Shown: positions 35,169 through 41,328 of the stretch, in pieces
Layout of the letters: every line of letters starts with the position of its first letter
Numbering within the stretch: the first letter of the stretch is position 1
Origin: an uncultured Lachnospiraceae bacterium
GTDB taxonomy: Bacteria; Bacillota; Clostridia; Lachnospirales; Lachnospiraceae
DNA: 41,328 nucleotides
Assembly (NCBI GenBank): GCA_902778165.1
Contig: CACYWQ010000017.1
Span: forward strand, 1-41,328
Reading direction: 5' to 3'
Position numbers and translations under genes: made by a program
The notes under the pieces: model-generated
What the model saw: the letters and a program-made list of their open reading frames with translations, nothing else
The model's database searches: none
What the model was told of the DNA's origin: nothing

Positions 35169-35188
35169 GGCAGGCTACATAGCCTGCC
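35169..35188 (-). terminator. Rho-independent terminator at the end of the hydrogenase-linked operon
   Basis: A perfect 9-bp inverted repeat (GGCAGGCTA / TAGCCTGCC) with a minimal loop is followed on the minus strand by TGTTTTGG. It lies 30 bases after the lipoprotein stop and before sstT. Confidence 0.8.
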
Positions 35189-35218: not shown

Positions 35219-36040
35219 CTACTTAAGAATCATTGTACCTTTAACGCCTTCCGAATTCTTGGCCTGCATGGTCATCGAACCTATATTATCGATACTGTCG
35301 GGTACTTCGAATATCAGCACTCTTTCATATGTCTCACCCGATGCCATCGGATCATTGCTGGCTGCCATATCATCAAGCAAGAGTGTGTACTGCTGATGTA
35401 TCTTCTCTCCTCCGTCTATCATAAGATAGAAGTTCGGATTCCTGTAGAACATATCAAATGTCTGCTCGGATGACCCGGTATTGGTTACTTCAAACTTAAG
35501 CACACATAATTGCTTGCCTTCCGTTGCATCCATCGCCATAAGAAGATCTTCGCCGGATGTAGGATAAGAATCCGTTAGTTCATATCCCGTATAACTTATA
35601 CTGAAACCGTCCATTCCATAGAACTGTGCAAGATCTCCGACCTGAGTATCTTCATCCTTCTTGGATGACTCGGAGTCACTTGACTCATCATTCTTGTTTT
35701 CCTTCTTATCCTTCTCGGCATTGGCCTTCTTAGCCAGATAATCCTCGGCTGCCGCCTTAGCTTCACGCTCTTTCCTTCGCTTCTCAGCCTCTTGTGCCTC
35801 TAATGTGGCCAGATCTTCCTCATTAAGAAGTTCACTCTGAGGAGCGTTCATATCATATTTAAGAATAAGACCAGCCGCATATTCCGTAACAAGTTCGGTC
35901 TGTTCCTCAGTAAGTTCAGGCATGGCAACAAGACCGCAACCCGTAAGTGTTGTACCTATAAGAGCAGAAACAAGCATGGATATACCGGTTCTTCTTATGC
36001 TTCTTGCTATTCTGTTATTTGCATAAATTCTTTCGTTCAT
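35219..36040 (-). CDS. Lipoprotein with charged linker and DUF5067/DUF4352-like domain
   Basis: The 273-residue protein has a basic N-terminus, a hydrophobic signal and the lipobox LTGC (Cys35), so it is anchored outside the membrane. Residues about 75-135 are a Glu/Lys/Ala-rich coiled-coil and a low-complexity Asp/Ser/Lys linker. The C-terminal domain (LCVLKFEVTNTGSSEQTFD, then RVLIFEVPDSIDNIGSMTM) has the immunoglobulin-like pattern of DUF4352/DUF5067 proteins. The function is unknown. It is the last gene of the operon, 54 bases after the kinase, and might be an external accessory of that sensor. Confidence 0.8.
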   Translation of the reverse strand: MNERIYANNRIARSIRRTGISMLVSALIGTTLTGCGLVAMPELTEEQTELVTEYAAGLILKYDMNAPQSELLNEEDLATLEAQEAEKRRKEREAKAAAEDYLAKKANAEKDKKENKNDESSDSESSKKDEDTQVGDLAQFYGMDGFSISYTGYELTDSYPTSGEDLLMAMDATEGKQLCVLKFEVTNTGSSEQTFDMFYRNPNFYLMIDGGEKIHQQYTLLLDDMAASNDPMASGETYERVLIFEVPDSIDNIGSMTMQAKNSEGVKGTMILK

Positions 36041-36094
36041 AATCTACCCTGACAGGCTTATTTAACACACAAACCGTCATATCTAATATATCAC

Positions 36095-37624
36095 TTAAGG
36101 CGCTCCCTTATCAAGTGTGAAGTAGAATCCGACACCGTTATCATAATTCTCTGCTCCGTATGCAGAATTCATTGATTTACATATGGCAGCAACTATGGAT
36201 AATCCCACGCCGCTTCCACCGTATTCCCTGGTTCTGGCCTTATCTACCTTATAGAATTTCTCCCATATATGTTTAATACTCTCTTCAGGAATGGGATCAC
36301 CCGTATTAAATACCGTTATCTTAACCTTATTATCAGGCTCATCTTTAACATCAATATCTATCGTCTTATCATAATCACAATGATTCATGGCATTTGACAG
36401 ATAGTTGGTTATGATCTCCTCTGTCAAATATTCATCACCCCATACATATATCGGATTGCCAATCGGGAAATTCACCTTGATGTTATTCTGCTTGGTAAGG
36501 ATCTCCGTTGTCTTTAGCACACCCTGAATCAGTTCCACGATATCAAATCGTTCCATATTTACCGTATCTGCGCCGAATTCAAGTTGATTAAGAGTAAGTA
36601 ACTTCCTTACCATCTCATTCATCTTATTTGCTTCATCGCTTATTACATTGCAATAATATGCCATATTCTCCGGATCATCGATAACGCCCTCAGACAAGCC
36701 TTCGGCATATCCCTGAATAAGAGCAATCGGTGTCTTTAGCTCATGGGATACGTTGGATAAGAATTCTCTTCTCATCTCATCTATCTCGGTCTTCTCTTCT
36801 ATATCTTTCTTAAGCATGGCGTTGGCGCTCTTAAGCTCCGATATATTCTTCTGAAGTGACTCCGACATCTTATTGATATTATTACCAAGAAGCGTGATCT
36901 CATTATCACCCTTAGGGACATACTTGGCATCGAAATCAAGATTGGTCATCTTCTCAGATATCTCCGCCAATTTAAGGATCGGTCTGCTGATACCGTTTGA
37001 GACGATCATAATGATAATGGCACTGATTATAATTACCGCAATCGACACATAACCTAAGAATCTGTTGGTTATTGCAACACTGTTATCAATACTTTCTACC
37101 GCAGATCTTATCAAGAACAGATTACCGCTGTTAAGGCTGCCCCACATCTCAAGATATTCTCCTCCGCTTCTGGGATCACGCGTAAGGCTAAGGGTATAAT
37201 TCTCATTAGCGATGAGCGTCTCATCTTCACCACCCGGAGGCGTCGGAGGTTTGGGCTTATCGCCGAATTGAGTTGCAAATATCTTATCCCACAGGCGCAT
37301 CTTGAGCATATCCGCGTCCTTGCCGGTGAACTTAACCATCTGTGAATCATTGTCCATCACCAGAAGATCCAACGAATACTTCTCGCATATATGCACTATC
37401 TCATCATCATATTCATCGGTATCAAATGCATTGACAGCCTCGGCAGCATTGATGCTTTCATATGCGCTTATGATCTCAGTCTGCTTGTTCTTAAGGTAAA
37501 AACGCTTAAGCAACAGATTGTTGGCAGCAAACAGCATAAACATAGCCAGGGCGAACACCGCTATGAATATGAGTGAGTACATATGTTTAATTGATTTTCT
37601 GTACTTTCTGTCTTTACACTTCAT
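36095..37624 (-). CDS. Sensor histidine kinase without an adjacent response regulator
   Basis: The 509-residue protein has a membrane span at about 16-36, an external domain of about 150 residues that includes a Pro-rich stretch (KPKPPTPPGGED), a second span at about 190-209, a HAMP domain (about 210-262) and a kinase core. The core has the H-box FLSNVSHELKTPIALIQG with His294, the N-box NYLSNAMNH, the F-box region IWEKFYKVD and the G-box GGSGVGLSIVAAI. The core is complete. No response regulator gene is present on either side, and it sits in an operon with the TM1266 regulator and an ABC transporter. It may pair with a regulator elsewhere. The start has only a weak ribosome site (GGTAAGTAAAGAC). 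Confidence 0.92.
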   Translation of the reverse strand: MKCKDRKYRKSIKHMYSLIFIAVFALAMFMLFAANNLLLKRFYLKNKQTEIISAYESINAAEAVNAFDTDEYDDEIVHICEKYSLDLLVMDNDSQMVKFTGKDADMLKMRLWDKIFATQFGDKPKPPTPPGGEDETLIANENYTLSLTRDPRSGGEYLEMWGSLNSGNLFLIRSAVESIDNSVAITNRFLGYVSIAVIIISAIIIMIVSNGISRPILKLAEISEKMTNLDFDAKYVPKGDNEITLLGNNINKMSESLQKNISELKSANAMLKKDIEEKTEIDEMRREFLSNVSHELKTPIALIQGYAEGLSEGVIDDPENMAYYCNVISDEANKMNEMVRKLLTLNQLEFGADTVNMERFDIVELIQGVLKTTEILTKQNNIKVNFPIGNPIYVWGDEYLTEEIITNYLSNAMNHCDYDKTIDIDVKDEPDNKVKITVFNTGDPIPEESIKHIWEKFYKVDKARTREYGGSGVGLSIVAAICKSMNSAYGAENYDNGVGFYFTLDKGAP

Positions 37625-37653
37625 GTCTTTACTTACCGGATAATATCCGATAT

Positions 37654-37905
37654 TTAACCTGCATACATTACCTTGGCTGACACGCCTTTGAGCATACCAA
37701 GCTTACCCGACAAGGCACTTATTGATGTCTGAGGAGCCTCTACTGCCACACTTATTACCGCTATTTCTCCGTCATTATGCTTATGGTGCGGAATCCCCAT
37801 TCGCCCAATGATATATTGTCCGTATTCAGAGAGTATCTCACTAATCTTAGCACTCTCTGATACATCCGATACTATTATTCCCACAAGAGCAATTCTTGAT
37901 TCCAT
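37654..37905 (-). CDS. TM1266 family putative iron-only hydrogenase system regulator
   Basis: The ATG at 37903-37905 follows AGGAGGGAAGT and gives 83 residues. The sequence (SRIALVGIIVSDVSESAKIS, GQYIIGRMGIPHHKHNDGEI, AVISVAVEAPQTSISALSGK, VSAKVMYAG) matches the small ferredoxin-fold family named after TM1266. Members are encoded near [FeFe]-hydrogenase and its maturation genes and resemble the C-terminal domain of NikR. They are thought to be regulators, without proof of a ligand. Here it lies between the fused ABC gene and the histidine kinase gene, which ties this operon to hydrogen metabolism. Confidence 0.88.
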   Translation of the reverse strand: MESRIALVGIIVSDVSESAKISEILSEYGQYIIGRMGIPHHKHNDGEIAVISVAVEAPQTSISALSGKLGMLKGVSAKVMYAG

Positions 37906-37949
37906 ACTTCCCTCCTTAACCGCCATTTATTAACTGTTAAATATCTCTG

Positions 37950-39317
37950 TTAATTATCTCCGTCAATAAGCGGAATGAGCATTTCATTATCCGCAATTCT
38001 AATCTCTGTATCGTGAGTGGTATACAGAAGGGTTCTGTTACCCAGATGTTTAATTATCCACTCTACGGTTTCCTTCTTGGTATCTTCATCAAGCCCCGTA
38101 AAGGGCTCATCCATAATCACAACATCCGAGGGATGAAGCATGGCTCTTGCTATAGCCAGTCGCCTTCTCTCACCGCCGCTTAATTTAGATACCGGAAGTT
38201 CCGTATCAACGGTGGGAATCAACCCCTTAAGCTCATCAGACAGATTACCCACACATCCTGCAATCTCAAGATTCCTGAGTCCGTTGGCACTCTCTATCAA
38301 TCTGTCATCCTGAAATACCATACTTATATCACCCGATTTAACCTCTCCTGAATCAGGCTTAATTATTCCGGATAACATACCAAGAAGCGTTGTCTTGCCG
38401 GCTCCCGACGGCGCTTTAAGATAATATATCTCACCCGCTCTTAACATGACAGATGTGTCAACTACCTTCCTGTCATCATATGACTTACTTATTCTATCCG
38501 CGCAAACGACATATTCAGAATCGCTCCATGCTTCATTTGTACATATCTTATCCGATGTCTTAACATCACTTATACACGGCTTCGGGATCATGGATAATCT
38601 CTTAAGGCCGTATACAAGCAACCGTTCCGTTATCGAACTAATAATAAGTATTACAGCTACCCATGCAAATACACCTGCCGTATTAAGGTATATCTTATCC
38701 CGATATAACCTCTCTCCTATACTCAGTTCAGGAAGGCCTATGATCTCTGCCGCAATTCCTGCCTTGAAACACATACCAAGCGATACTGCAGCCGATGACA
38801 AAAGATATGGCATATAAGCAGGACGATATATCCATATAAATCTCTTAAACGGACCAATCTTATATACATCCGCCATCTGTTTAAGTCTTACATCAACACT
38901 TGCAAGACCCGTCTGCATATTGGCATATATGTTGGGATATACGATCATCAGACTGATACACAGGACAAGATATTTAGGTCCCCACCAGATAAGAAGAATG
39001 ACTGCAACAGCCGCAACCGGAACAGCCTTAAGAAAAGTCACAAAAGGTGAAATAAACTCTTTGACAAATGCGCATTTAAGCGATCCAAAGGCAGATATAA
39101 ACGCAAGGATAAATGCCACTGCAAAGCCCGTAATTATTCTTACAAGCGATCCGCCGATGGATTGCCAGAATGCCGCTTCACGCACCTTGCCCGCCAATTC
39201 TGTAATGACTTCGACGGGCGATGCGAAATAAATCGAATTATTAACTATGATTGCCGTTATCTGCCACAGTAACAGCCAGATAAGCAAAATTACTGATTTC
39301 TTTATCTTAATCTTCAT
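37950..39317 (-). CDS. Fused ABC importer: SsuC-type permease joined to SsuB-type ATPase
   Basis: One 455-residue chain has both parts. Residues 1-240 form a permease of the nitrate/sulphonate/taurine type with about six spans, including the EAA-loop region (QMADVYKIGPFKRFIWIYRP) and AAEIIGLPELSIGERL. Residues about 268-455 form an ATPase with Walker A APSGAGKTT (302-310; first residue Ala in place of Gly), Q-loop Gln336, signature LSGGERRRLAIAR (from 379), Walker B VVIMDEPFTGLD and switch His435 in TTHDTE. The usual importer has separate genes, so a half-transporter that dimerises is implied. The start overlaps the binding-protein gene by 4 bases. The substrate is unknown. The ATPase half is shorter than usual (about 190 rather than 240 residues). 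Confidence 0.93.
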   Translation of the reverse strand: MKIKIKKSVILLIWLLLWQITAIIVNNSIYFASPVEVITELAGKVREAAFWQSIGGSLVRIITGFAVAFILAFISAFGSLKCAFVKEFISPFVTFLKAVPVAAVAVILLIWWGPKYLVLCISLMIVYPNIYANMQTGLASVDVRLKQMADVYKIGPFKRFIWIYRPAYMPYLLSSAAVSLGMCFKAGIAAEIIGLPELSIGERLYRDKIYLNTAGVFAWVAVILIISSITERLLVYGLKRLSMIPKPCISDVKTSDKICTNEAWSDSEYVVCADRISKSYDDRKVVDTSVMLRAGEIYYLKAPSGAGKTTLLGMLSGIIKPDSGEVKSGDISMVFQDDRLIESANGLRNLEIAGCVGNLSDELKGLIPTVDTELPVSKLSGGERRRLAIARAMLHPSDVVIMDEPFTGLDEDTKKETVEWIIKHLGNRTLLYTTHDTEIRIADNEMLIPLIDGDN

Positions 39318-40273
39318 TTTATATCGGCATAAAAATCATCTGCCGGAAGGCTTCCGCCCACAGAAGAGGGATCCTGCTCATACAGAGCTGCCAGATATCC
39401 CGATAATGATTCCTTAGCATCAGCGCCTGAAATGCACACAATATTGCAGTAAGGAATTGCCTTGGCTGCAACGGGTGCCTTCTCTATGATTCCCGCTTCA
39501 GCAACATACTCTGATGCCGTCTCTACATCTGAATTAACAAATTCGGCGTCAGACTTATGATCCTTAACGAATGCCTCTACAGCTGCCGGATGCTCCTTAA
39601 GGAAATCATTACGGACAACAGTTACACCGGTTATAAGCTTAGAACCGTTACCAAGCTTATTCCACTCATCCGTCATATCAAGCACTATCTTAAGCGCCTC
39701 ATTCTTGCTTAAGGCTGCCGTAACGAAGGGCTGCGGAAGCATACCTACCGCTGATGTGTCCTTAGCAAGGACTGCTGCAACTTCTGTTGCCTCGGATTTA
39801 AATTCTATACCAACCTTATCCGTAAGGCCATTCTGTGCAAGAAGATATCTAAGGACATATTCCGGAGTAGAACCCGCTCCCGTTGTATATACCGTTCTGC
39901 CTTCAAGGTCGGCAAGGGATGAAATAGAGTTATCACCACTCACCATATACAGAACGCCGAGGGTATTGATATCTATAACCGATATTCCGCCCTTGGTCTT
40001 GTTATACAGAACCGATGCCACATTCGCAGGAATAAGTGCTATATCAAGCTCTCCGGATACAACGGATGATAATATCACATCTGCCTGTGTCTCCATTGTA
40101 AACGTATAATTATTGTTCTCCTGCTCATGCATCATACGAATGATGCCGATCGATGTAGGGCCCTTAAGTGAACCCACTCTTACCTCGGTCGTATCAGCCG
40201 TCCCGGCACCGCATCCGCATAATACTGTCATCGCCGCAACTAACGCAACAACCGCCCTAACAATTTTTTTCAT
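39314..40273 (-). CDS. ABC transporter substrate-binding lipoprotein (NMT1/TauA-like)
   Basis: The 319-residue protein has a lipoprotein signal (MKKIVRAVVALVAAMTVLC, lipobox LCGC) and a periplasmic-binding-protein fold of the NMT1/SsuA/TauA kind: VRVGSLKGPTSIGIIRMM, GELDIALIPANVASVLYNK, LADLEGRTVYTTGAGSTPEY, VGMLPQPFVTAAL. AAGGAGAGAAA precedes the ATG. It is encoded directly before the fused permease-ATPase and is surely its binding protein. Family members bind taurine, sulphonates, nitrate, bicarbonate, riboflavin or thiamine precursors; nothing here decides which. It starts 50 bases after the iron-sulphur/MCP gene. Confidence 0.92.
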   Translation of the reverse strand: MKKIVRAVVALVAAMTVLCGCGAGTADTTEVRVGSLKGPTSIGIIRMMHEQENNNYTFTMETQADVILSSVVSGELDIALIPANVASVLYNKTKGGISVIDINTLGVLYMVSGDNSISSLADLEGRTVYTTGAGSTPEYVLRYLLAQNGLTDKVGIEFKSEATEVAAVLAKDTSAVGMLPQPFVTAALSKNEALKIVLDMTDEWNKLGNGSKLITGVTVVRNDFLKEHPAAVEAFVKDHKSDAEFVNSDVETASEYVAEAGIIEKAPVAAKAIPYCNIVCISGADAKESLSGYLAALYEQDPSSVGGSLPADDFYADIK

Positions 40274-40323
40274 TTTCTCTCCTTCCCACTCAGCACGAAG
40301 CTTTGTTGTCAGATAAATAATAT

Positions 40324-41328
40324 TTATGATTCAAGCACTTGTTTAAGTGAATCCTCAACGTTTCTTGTAAGAGTCTGCATCATGCCGATTGATTCGGACG
40401 TCTCTTCCGATGAAGCAACAAGACTCTTGGCTCTTGCATCAACGCTCTCAACTATCTCAGCTAATCTCTCGGATTCTTCTATGAGCTTATCAACTGTAGT
40501 CTTGATGTCGTTATTGTTCTTATTACTGTCATCGGCAGTTGTCTTGGAATCTTCGGCAAGTGCCTTAATCTCTTCAGCAACAACGGCGAATCCCTTACCT
40601 GCTTCGCCTGCACGGGCAGCCTCGATTGATGCGTTAAGCGCCAATAAGTTGGTCTGGTTAGAGATAGCTATAACGTCGGCATTATTGGCACCGAGTTTCT
40701 CAAGATATCCCTCGATAGATGACAATACTTCTCTAAGATTCTGAGCGAAATCATTAACTTCCGCCATAGACTCCGTTATGCCGTTTGTCTCTCTGGCATT
40801 ATCCGCACTGACTTTCTCGATCTGATTGATCGAATCCATAAGATTCTCAAAGTTCTCGTTGATACCGTCAACAACAGATGCTTTCTTCGCATTAAGTTCT
40901 TCCTGAACACGCTTAACTTCATCAGCAAGATCGATAGCCTTATCCTTCTCCTCATAAGCTCTGTCCTTAATGTAATGAACACAGTTATGATGATGGCTGA
41001 ATCCGTTATATATGGCAATTGCCATATCCTTACATGTTGAATATCCGCAACAGCCGCAGTCAATATGACGCTTCTCTTCGGTATCCTTCTTAAGTTTCTT
41101 ATATATTGCCTCAAGCTCGGCATTAGACGGAATACGCAGTGCGCAATCTGCACTTCTGTCCGTATACTTCCTTAAGAAATCTTCAAGATTGAGTCCTTCG
41201 AATTGCTTGTTAAGTGCCGCAAGCCTCTTGGCCGGAGTCATATTCCTGCCCCATGCCGACTTCTTGGAATCGTTCTTGCTGTCAGCCTTAATCTTCTGGA
41301 TGGTCATAAATACATCTTCATTCAGGGT
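40324..41328 (-). CDS. C-terminal part of an iron-sulphur and chemotaxis-signalling protein, probably a sensory [FeFe]-hydrogenase-like protein (partial)
   Basis: An ATG occurs at 41305-41307, but the frame stays open to the window edge (seven more codons, TLNEDVF) and no ribosome site is visible before that ATG, so the gene most likely continues upstream. Numbered from the ATG, a linker with [19 protein letters not shown] leads to a 4Fe-4S motif, Cys84-x2-Cys87-x4-Cys92-x16-Cys109 (CGCCGYSTC). The same motif occurs in the C-terminal part of clostridial sensory [FeFe]-hydrogenase-like proteins. After a coiled coil comes the hairpin tip of a chemotaxis receptor ([36 protein letters not shown]). 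There is no membrane span, so the protein is cytoplasmic. The missing N-terminal part is predicted to hold an H-cluster domain; this is inference. Confidence 0.8.

Follow-up and report, generated by a model that had tools for sequence, protein, structure and literature searches.

We analyzed a stretch of 41,328 nucleotides from an uncultured Lachnospiraceae bacterium (hereafter, the window), which is the entire contig C17 of a draft genome of 2.35 Mb (G000; 48 contigs, 95.34% complete). Throughout, G numbers denote genomes, L numbers fetched loci or stretches, and C numbers contigs of this genome unless prefixed. At its end, the window contains six minus-strand genes that encode, in the direction of transcription, the C-terminal half of a hydrogenase-type sensor, a substrate-binding lipoprotein (SBP), a fused ATP-binding cassette (ABC) permease-ATPase, a TM1266 family protein, a sensor histidine kinase (HK) and a second lipoprotein. 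Our analyses suggest that these genes represent two joined modules: a conserved two-component operon, and a cassette of sensor, SBP, ABC and TM1266 genes that was probably gained laterally and that lies between the response regulator (RR) and HK genes of this operon.

The coordinates of the open reading frames (ORFs) agree with an initial annotation of the region, which had described six co-directional genes with gaps of at most about 54 bases and a single 4-base overlap (successive gaps of 50, -4, 23, 29 and 54 nt). Domains were assigned by Pfam and NCBIfam profile searches of the translated window ORFs. The first gene (40324..41328; 334 aa) is open at the window edge because position 41328 is the end of the contig, and it is thus truncated by the assembly and not by a stop codon. 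Its product contains the two features already noticed in the initial annotation: a C-terminal 4Fe-4S motif (PF04060 FeS, E 3.5e-7; 40978..41064, residues 89-117 of the translated frame) and a methyl-accepting chemotaxis protein (MCP) signalling domain that includes its conserved hairpin tip (PF00015, E 4.1e-23; 40336..40668, residues 221-331). It is followed by the genes for the SBP, which has the NMT1/SsuA fold and belongs to a hydrogenase-linked importer family (39314..40273; profiles and fold model), for the permease-ATPase, encoded as one chain (37950..39317; BPD_transp_1 and ABC_tran), and for the TM1266 protein (37654..37926; structure 2nzc), whose earlier assignment is supported by a TIGR03959 score of 97.3 bits versus a cut-off of 60.8. 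The last two genes encode the HK (36095..37624; HAMP-HisKA-HATPase_c) and a DUF5067-like lipoprotein (35219..36040), whose match lies just below the cut-off (26.7 versus 27). A strong terminator had been proposed to end the operon. A GC-rich hairpin (35169..35188) with a T-rich tail, TGTTTT on the minus strand, is indeed present about 30 nt beyond the last stop and is a likely operon terminator; its strength is plausible, and a pattern scan reported this hairpin on the plus strand only and found 5 terminator-like sites versus 3.6 in shuffled sequences. The gene that comes after the lipoprotein gene in the window encodes SstT, of the dicarboxylate-symporter family.

The sensor and its H-cluster domain

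A search of the genome for H-cluster domains gave four places, one of which lies right at the beginning of contig C39. This N-terminal sensor half of 306 aa (C39:3-920, minus strand, outside the window) carries two 4Fe-4S motifs and a hydrogenase domain (PF02906, 112 bits versus a cut-off of 22.1), and its reading frame runs off the contig end in the direction expected for the window half. Thus, the H-cluster domain that had been anticipated upstream of position 41328 was found, and not a stop without a hydrogenase domain. An exact overlap between the ends of C39 and C17 was sought, and none was found. In L179, from the metagenome-assembled genome (MAG) Lachnospiraceae Tb.RUG.225, a single ORF of 646 aa covers both halves: residues 1-306 are 88% identical to the C39 half and residues 313-646 are 75% identical to the window half, and by this alignment six residues between the two halves are unseen; some 16-18 bases are missing between C39 and C17. 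The order of domains in the sensor is ferredoxin-like, H-cluster, FeS motif and MCP signalling domain. As for the three conserved cysteine motifs of H-cluster domains, the L1, L2 and L3 cysteines are all there except the first of the L1 CC pair, to which we return below. Together, the domain composition supports the prediction that the first gene encodes a hydrogenase-type sensor. Of 397 family genomes, 67 have matches to this sensor at E <= 1e-140; a few of these matches are incomplete or have another output type. At 20 sensor loci from 20 other genomes, neither the importer nor TM1266 was found within flanks of 1.5 kb, some of which were cut by contig ends (0/20).

The genome encodes three sensory H-cluster proteins, on contigs C20, C38 and C39/C17 (L009, L008 and L006), the outputs of which are HisKA-HATPase-receiver-Hpt, GGDEF-EAL and MCP. 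The fourth H-cluster protein is a monomeric hydrogenase of the catalytic type (TIGR04105, 610.8 bits versus a cut-off of 450). Three CheW-domain matches were detected, one of them within a 696-aa frame that we interpret as CheA despite a TGA read within it. These matches, including the putative CheA, make an MCP output plausible.

The two-component operon and its cargo site

The initial annotation had regarded the kinase as lacking a local response regulator. This view does not hold, because an OmpR-type RR (C39:1023-1712; Response_reg and Trans_reg_C), of which the window HK is the orthologous partner, is encoded directly upstream of the sensor half on C39. The RR and sensor genes are separated by 102 nt, and the TM1266 and HK genes by 29 nt. 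Hence, in this genome, the cassette is placed between RR and HK. The RR-sensor junction is on C39 and the TM1266-HK junction on C17; the two are consistent with one insertion.

The operon in which the cassette resides is widespread. In a family set of 150 genomes, one per genus, the RR had a best match at E <= 1e-80 in 142, its own genome included. At 20 family RR loci, the ortholog of the window HK follows the RR directly in 16 and with one gene between them in one, and was unseen in the other three. Within the genus, RR and HK are adjacent in 14 of 20 genomes, in one of them as a single frame of 751 aa, other genes are found at the junction in five (including the genome analyzed here), and one was unresolved at a contig end. 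Adjacency was also found in all five genomes of L179-L183. A DUF5067-like lipoprotein gene comes after the HK gene in 6 of the 20 family loci and in all four congener stretches. These results show that an operon encoding a 194-aa protein, an OmpR-type RR, an HK and a DUF5067-like lipoprotein is conserved in Lachnospiraceae, and the RR and HK genes that are neighbours without a cassette are empty sites. By these gene orders, the kinase and the second lipoprotein belong to an older conserved two-component operon and not to a dedicated hydrogen system. A PilZ-domain gene (L006:2346-3035), which is kept in congeners, lies upstream of the genes for the 194-aa protein and the RR, hinting at a c-di-GMP or motility context. 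At L263 (G080:C15), from another genus, a dicarboxylate-symporter-family gene separates the RR ortholog from a nearby gene for a sensor of the kind described above.

At the same junction, other congeners carry different cargo, as seen in the stretches L333, L337/L358, L342/L360 and L351/L359. In G153 it is a pyruvate/ferredoxin oxidoreductase-type gene (POR_N), after which the contig ends; in G152, a methionine synthase activation domain and a methionine-synthase-like gene; in G161, a 5'-nucleotidase gene; and in G150, a gene for a SPOR-domain lipoprotein. In the latter three genomes, the kinase and then the lipoprotein are encoded downstream of the cargo. Autoregulation by the RR might make this junction attractive for cargo.

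These data bear on the possibility that sensor, importer, TM1266, kinase and lipoprotein, together with the RR, form one dedicated hydrogen-signalling unit in which the kinase responds to the importer or the sensor. This is close to the initial annotation, which had proposed a unit that senses hydrogen or redox state, imports a compound and signals through the kinase. The co-directional genes, the short gaps and the upstream RR do make co-expression likely. However, in most relatives examined the RR-HK operon lacks the cassette (16/20 family loci, 14/20 genomes of the genus and all five other MAGs, as described above), and four congeners have unrelated genes at the junction, which makes a dedicated unit unlikely. 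That the RR partners the SBP in other genomes was considered and rejected: the RR is a family-wide ortholog, and in a by-eye comparison that left aside the genome analyzed here, its best match and the SBP lie more than 60 kb apart where they share a contig. Some SBP/TM1266 loci do have two-component pairs nearby, but these match more weakly (RR scores of about 157-161 bits) and are different systems.

The relationships of the cassette differ from those of the operon. The window SBP is 64-75% identical to those of L179-L183 and 53-60% to five congener copies, and together with the L179-L183 sequences it forms a clade of six in the SBP tree (SH-aLRT 98), the five congener SBPs ranking 26th or lower by tree distance. 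For the RR, the situation is reversed: identity is 67% up to 89% to congeners versus 62-68% in the genomes of L179-L183. The 194-aa protein likewise scores 203-343 bits in congeners versus 68-110 bits in the latter genomes, which also do not have the upstream PilZ gene; based on these two characteristics, we take L179-L183 as lying outside the genus. The simplest and most likely explanation of these comparisons is that the cassette was gained laterally. The gene order is sensor-SBP-ABC-TM1266 in L179, SBP-ABC-sensor in L181, SBP-ABC-TM1266 in L180 and L183, and SBP-ABC alone in L182. The exact order of the window was found in its own genome only.

The importer and TM1266 as neighbours of hydrogenase genes

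In the family set, SBP homologues are present in 59 genomes and TM1266 in 81; 34 have both, in 16 cases at most 6 kb apart. We scored an SBP locus as linked when an H-cluster gene, TM1266 or a maturase gene was present within 6 kb. By this measure, 29 of the 59 loci are linked: 18 to an H-cluster gene, 16 to TM1266 and one to a maturase gene. Among loci with full flanks the proportion is 22/42, versus 0/30 for fixed-position control windows of the same genome set (Fisher p = 3e-7, a value that overstates the linkage because the rows are related). In a wider set, 58 of 141 non-redundant loci are linked (41/95 with full flanks). A tree of 112 SBPs requires no fewer than 28 changes of linkage, and ten arrangement classes besides none were distinguished, which include TM1266 upstream or downstream, a hydrogenase upstream or downstream, and a sensor-SpoIIE-hydrogenase trio. 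The latter, which resembles HydDB group C3, consists of a PAS-bearing sensor hydrogenase, a SpoIIE phosphatase and a monomeric hydrogenase, and occurs at 12 non-redundant loci (L082, L097, L101, L164, L170 (the same place as L223), L175, L187, L193, L206, L215, L226 and L235). It is divergent at all but L235, and the monomeric-type hydrogenase was seen in the rows that reach far enough. At L101, the families were established by profile (TIGR04105, 615 bits versus 450; SpoIIE and PAS). When SBP neighbours were clustered without preselection, hydrogenase was the commonest family after the ABC genes (36 loci), followed by tig (28), TM1266 (27), clpP (26) and clpX (23). The neighbours of TM1266 give a complementary picture: 18 of 30 loci adjoin maturase genes, six adjoin the importer and six neither. 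In one genus (L173), the genes for SBP, ABC, TM1266, HydE, HydG and HydF are consecutive; the maturase identities at L173 and L107 were confirmed by family profiles. The TM1266 gene of the window is the sole copy detected in its genome.

Co-occurrence per genome was uninformative, both for SBP and TM1266 (TM1266 in 34 of 59 SBP genomes versus 47 of 91 others) and for SBP and H-cluster genes (the latter being present in 138 of 150 genomes). Based on gene order, the importer-hydrogenase association is real: many genera show linkage of the importer and of TM1266 with hydrogenase genes. Hence, of the conserved linkage that the initial annotation had expected in related genomes, this part stands, and the full gene order with kinase and lipoprotein does not. 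Judged by titles and the beginnings of abstracts, no description of an importer-hydrogenase link was recognised in the open-access literature, most subscription journals lying outside the search. Two further features of importer loci are that permease and ATPase, fused in the window, are two genes in many relatives, and that in G031 a 1111-aa ORF (L071:11215-14550) lies between the SBP and the fused ABC genes.

The linkage could be without function, importer and TM1266 staying beside hydrogenase genes through inherited gene order. Gene order is partly inherited: the importer, with or without TM1266, is beside the trigger factor gene (tig) in 28 loci, mostly together with clpP and clpX (e.g. 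L073, L086 and L184), probably an inherited position, and the SBP loci that are not linked (30/59) also fit this idea. On the other hand, the excess over the control windows (even if its p value is too small given the relatedness), the ten linked classes with at least 28 changes on the SBP tree, and the rank of hydrogenase as top neighbour after the ABC genes render it improbable.

It is also conceivable that the importer supplies H-cluster assembly with a precursor or a maturation co-substrate, which would be most useful where maturases are missing or limiting. The position of TM1266 beside maturase genes (18/30 loci) and beside the importer ABC genes (6/30), the L173 row and the failure to find HydG in the genome analyzed here would suit such a role. 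We nevertheless consider it quite unlikely, since at least four genomes (G033, G038, G046 and G144) encode both SBP and maturases and the absence of HydG rests on one genome. Replacement of maturases by the importer finds no support as a general rule, because this coexistence means that the importer is no simple maturase replacement.

With regard to the substrate, we examined the SBP itself. It matches NMT1/THI5-like PF09084 (33.4 bits, gathering score 20.5) and scores below the cut-off of SsuA_fam TIGR01728 (68 versus 163.5 bits). A sequence search of solved structures gave 3hn0 as the sole match at E <= 0.01. In a fold search with a structure model (mean pLDDT 92.3), proteins for sulfonate, pyrroloquinoline quinone (PQQ), bicarbonate/nitrate, and thiamin and its precursors, as well as menaquinone enzymes, were among the matches. 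A thiamine pyrophosphate-type riboswitch by the SBP gene found no support at the 34 loci searched (33 with SBP), which at Rfam gathering thresholds contained one tRNA and one tmRNA only.

Interpretation and comparison with known systems

The reading that we favour, and hold to be reasonably probable, is that the locus joins a conserved two-component operon and a laterally gained cassette. Through its insertion behind the RR gene, the cassette would be expressed whenever the HK/RR pair activates the operon that encodes it. The soluble hydrogenase-MCP protein would react with H2 or with the ferredoxin/redox pool at the H-cluster region, and the change might be relayed by the C-terminal 4Fe-4S cluster to the coiled coil of the MCP domain and so modulate CheA. 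The importer would bring in a small compound connected with hydrogenase function, and TM1266 may adjust the response. The HK and the lipoprotein probably have no hydrogen-specific role.

Several observations weigh against this two-module reading. Firstly, the first cysteine of the L1 motif is a proline (SQPCP), versus TSCCP in the aligned catalytic-type enzymes, and the same change is present in the two other sensor-type proteins of the genome. The first cysteine of the L1 CC pair serves proton transfer. Secondly, a search for HydG (TIGR03955), the one maturase for which this genome was searched, gave no match at 95.34% completeness; the same search gave matches in 7 of 14 control genomes. It follows that a mature H-cluster is not assured and that H2 sensing is unproven: either the gene lies within the missing 5% of the genome, or the H-cluster matures in an unusual way, or the protein lacks a complete H-cluster and senses redox state. 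Thirdly, 30 of the 59 SBP loci, 20 of them with full flanks, have no hydrogenase-related gene within 6 kb, and the sensor adjoins the importer in only two other genomes (L179 and L181). Finally, many ligand classes appear at similar Z in the search with the SBP model, so that no ligand is called, and no substrate, promoter or RR-binding site was identified. An assembly artefact of the 48-contig draft is very unlikely: although the TM1266-HK and RR-sensor junctions occur in this assembly only, on two contigs whose ends do not overlap, they are the reciprocal ends of one insertion and L179 independently shows sensor-SBP-ABC-TM1266.

More tentatively, Lachnospiraceae might possess an ABC importer that is dedicated to their [FeFe]-hydrogenase systems and has so far not been described. 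What it imports would be used in building the H-cluster or would, with TM1266, control hydrogenase output, and the cassette would have been captured here by a two-component operon with a cargo site. The importer recurs beside [FeFe]-hydrogenases, TM1266 and, once, maturases in gut-type bacteria; finding its substrate would show what hydrogenase systems take from outside and could give the function of TM1266. The RR-HK junction, empty in 14 of 20 genomes of the genus and with five contents in five genomes, is a natural series of gene capture by a signalling operon.

Like PhoB/PhoR- and WalR/WalK-type systems, the host operon encodes an OmpR-type RR and a HAMP-HisKA kinase, adjacent in most relatives examined. 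It differs in that a lipoprotein gene follows, in that the RR-HK site is variable, and in that the HK scores below the curated equivalog cut-offs of PnpS (205.4/400 bits), WalK (201/725) and PhoR (188.3/334.2), none being reached among the matches listed. The importer is alike in fold and gene set (SBP, permease and ATPase) to SsuABC, TauABC, ThiXYZ and PqqT, but it has a fused permease-ATPase, remains below the SsuA_fam cut-off and has recurrent hydrogenase neighbours. The TM1266 protein is, by curated cut-off, a member of TIGR03959, 'iron-only hydrogenase system putative regulator' (2nzc). Whereas other TM1266 genes often adjoin those for HydE, HydF or HydG (18/30), here the gene is beside an ABC importer, in a genome in which no HydG was detected. 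According to the accessible part of one study, the Rex regulon of Clostridium thermocellum includes a gene named like TM1266 that has hydG as its neighbour (PMC8457756).

With regard to the sensor, the window protein has an MCP output. The sensory hydrogenase of Thermotoga maritima and TamHydS, on the other hand, reportedly have a PAS output. As far as the accessible text describes it, sensory [FeFe]-hydrogenase is a putative sensor with an extra C-terminal 4Fe-4S cluster (PMC13104023), a feature that the window protein shares. By its domain make-up, with PF00015 on the same protein as the H-cluster domain, the window sensor appears to be HydDB C2-like. In the available portion of its description, group C2 comprises MCP-linked [FeFe]-hydrogenases, 'chemotactic (putative)', with an undetermined role (doi 10.1038/srep34212). 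H-cluster domain and methyl-accepting chemotaxis output are thus shared, and there too H2 sensing is a proposal; that portion mentions neither an importer nor a two-component operon. In the genome analyzed here, sensors of this type also exist with kinase-receiver-Hpt and with GGDEF-EAL outputs.

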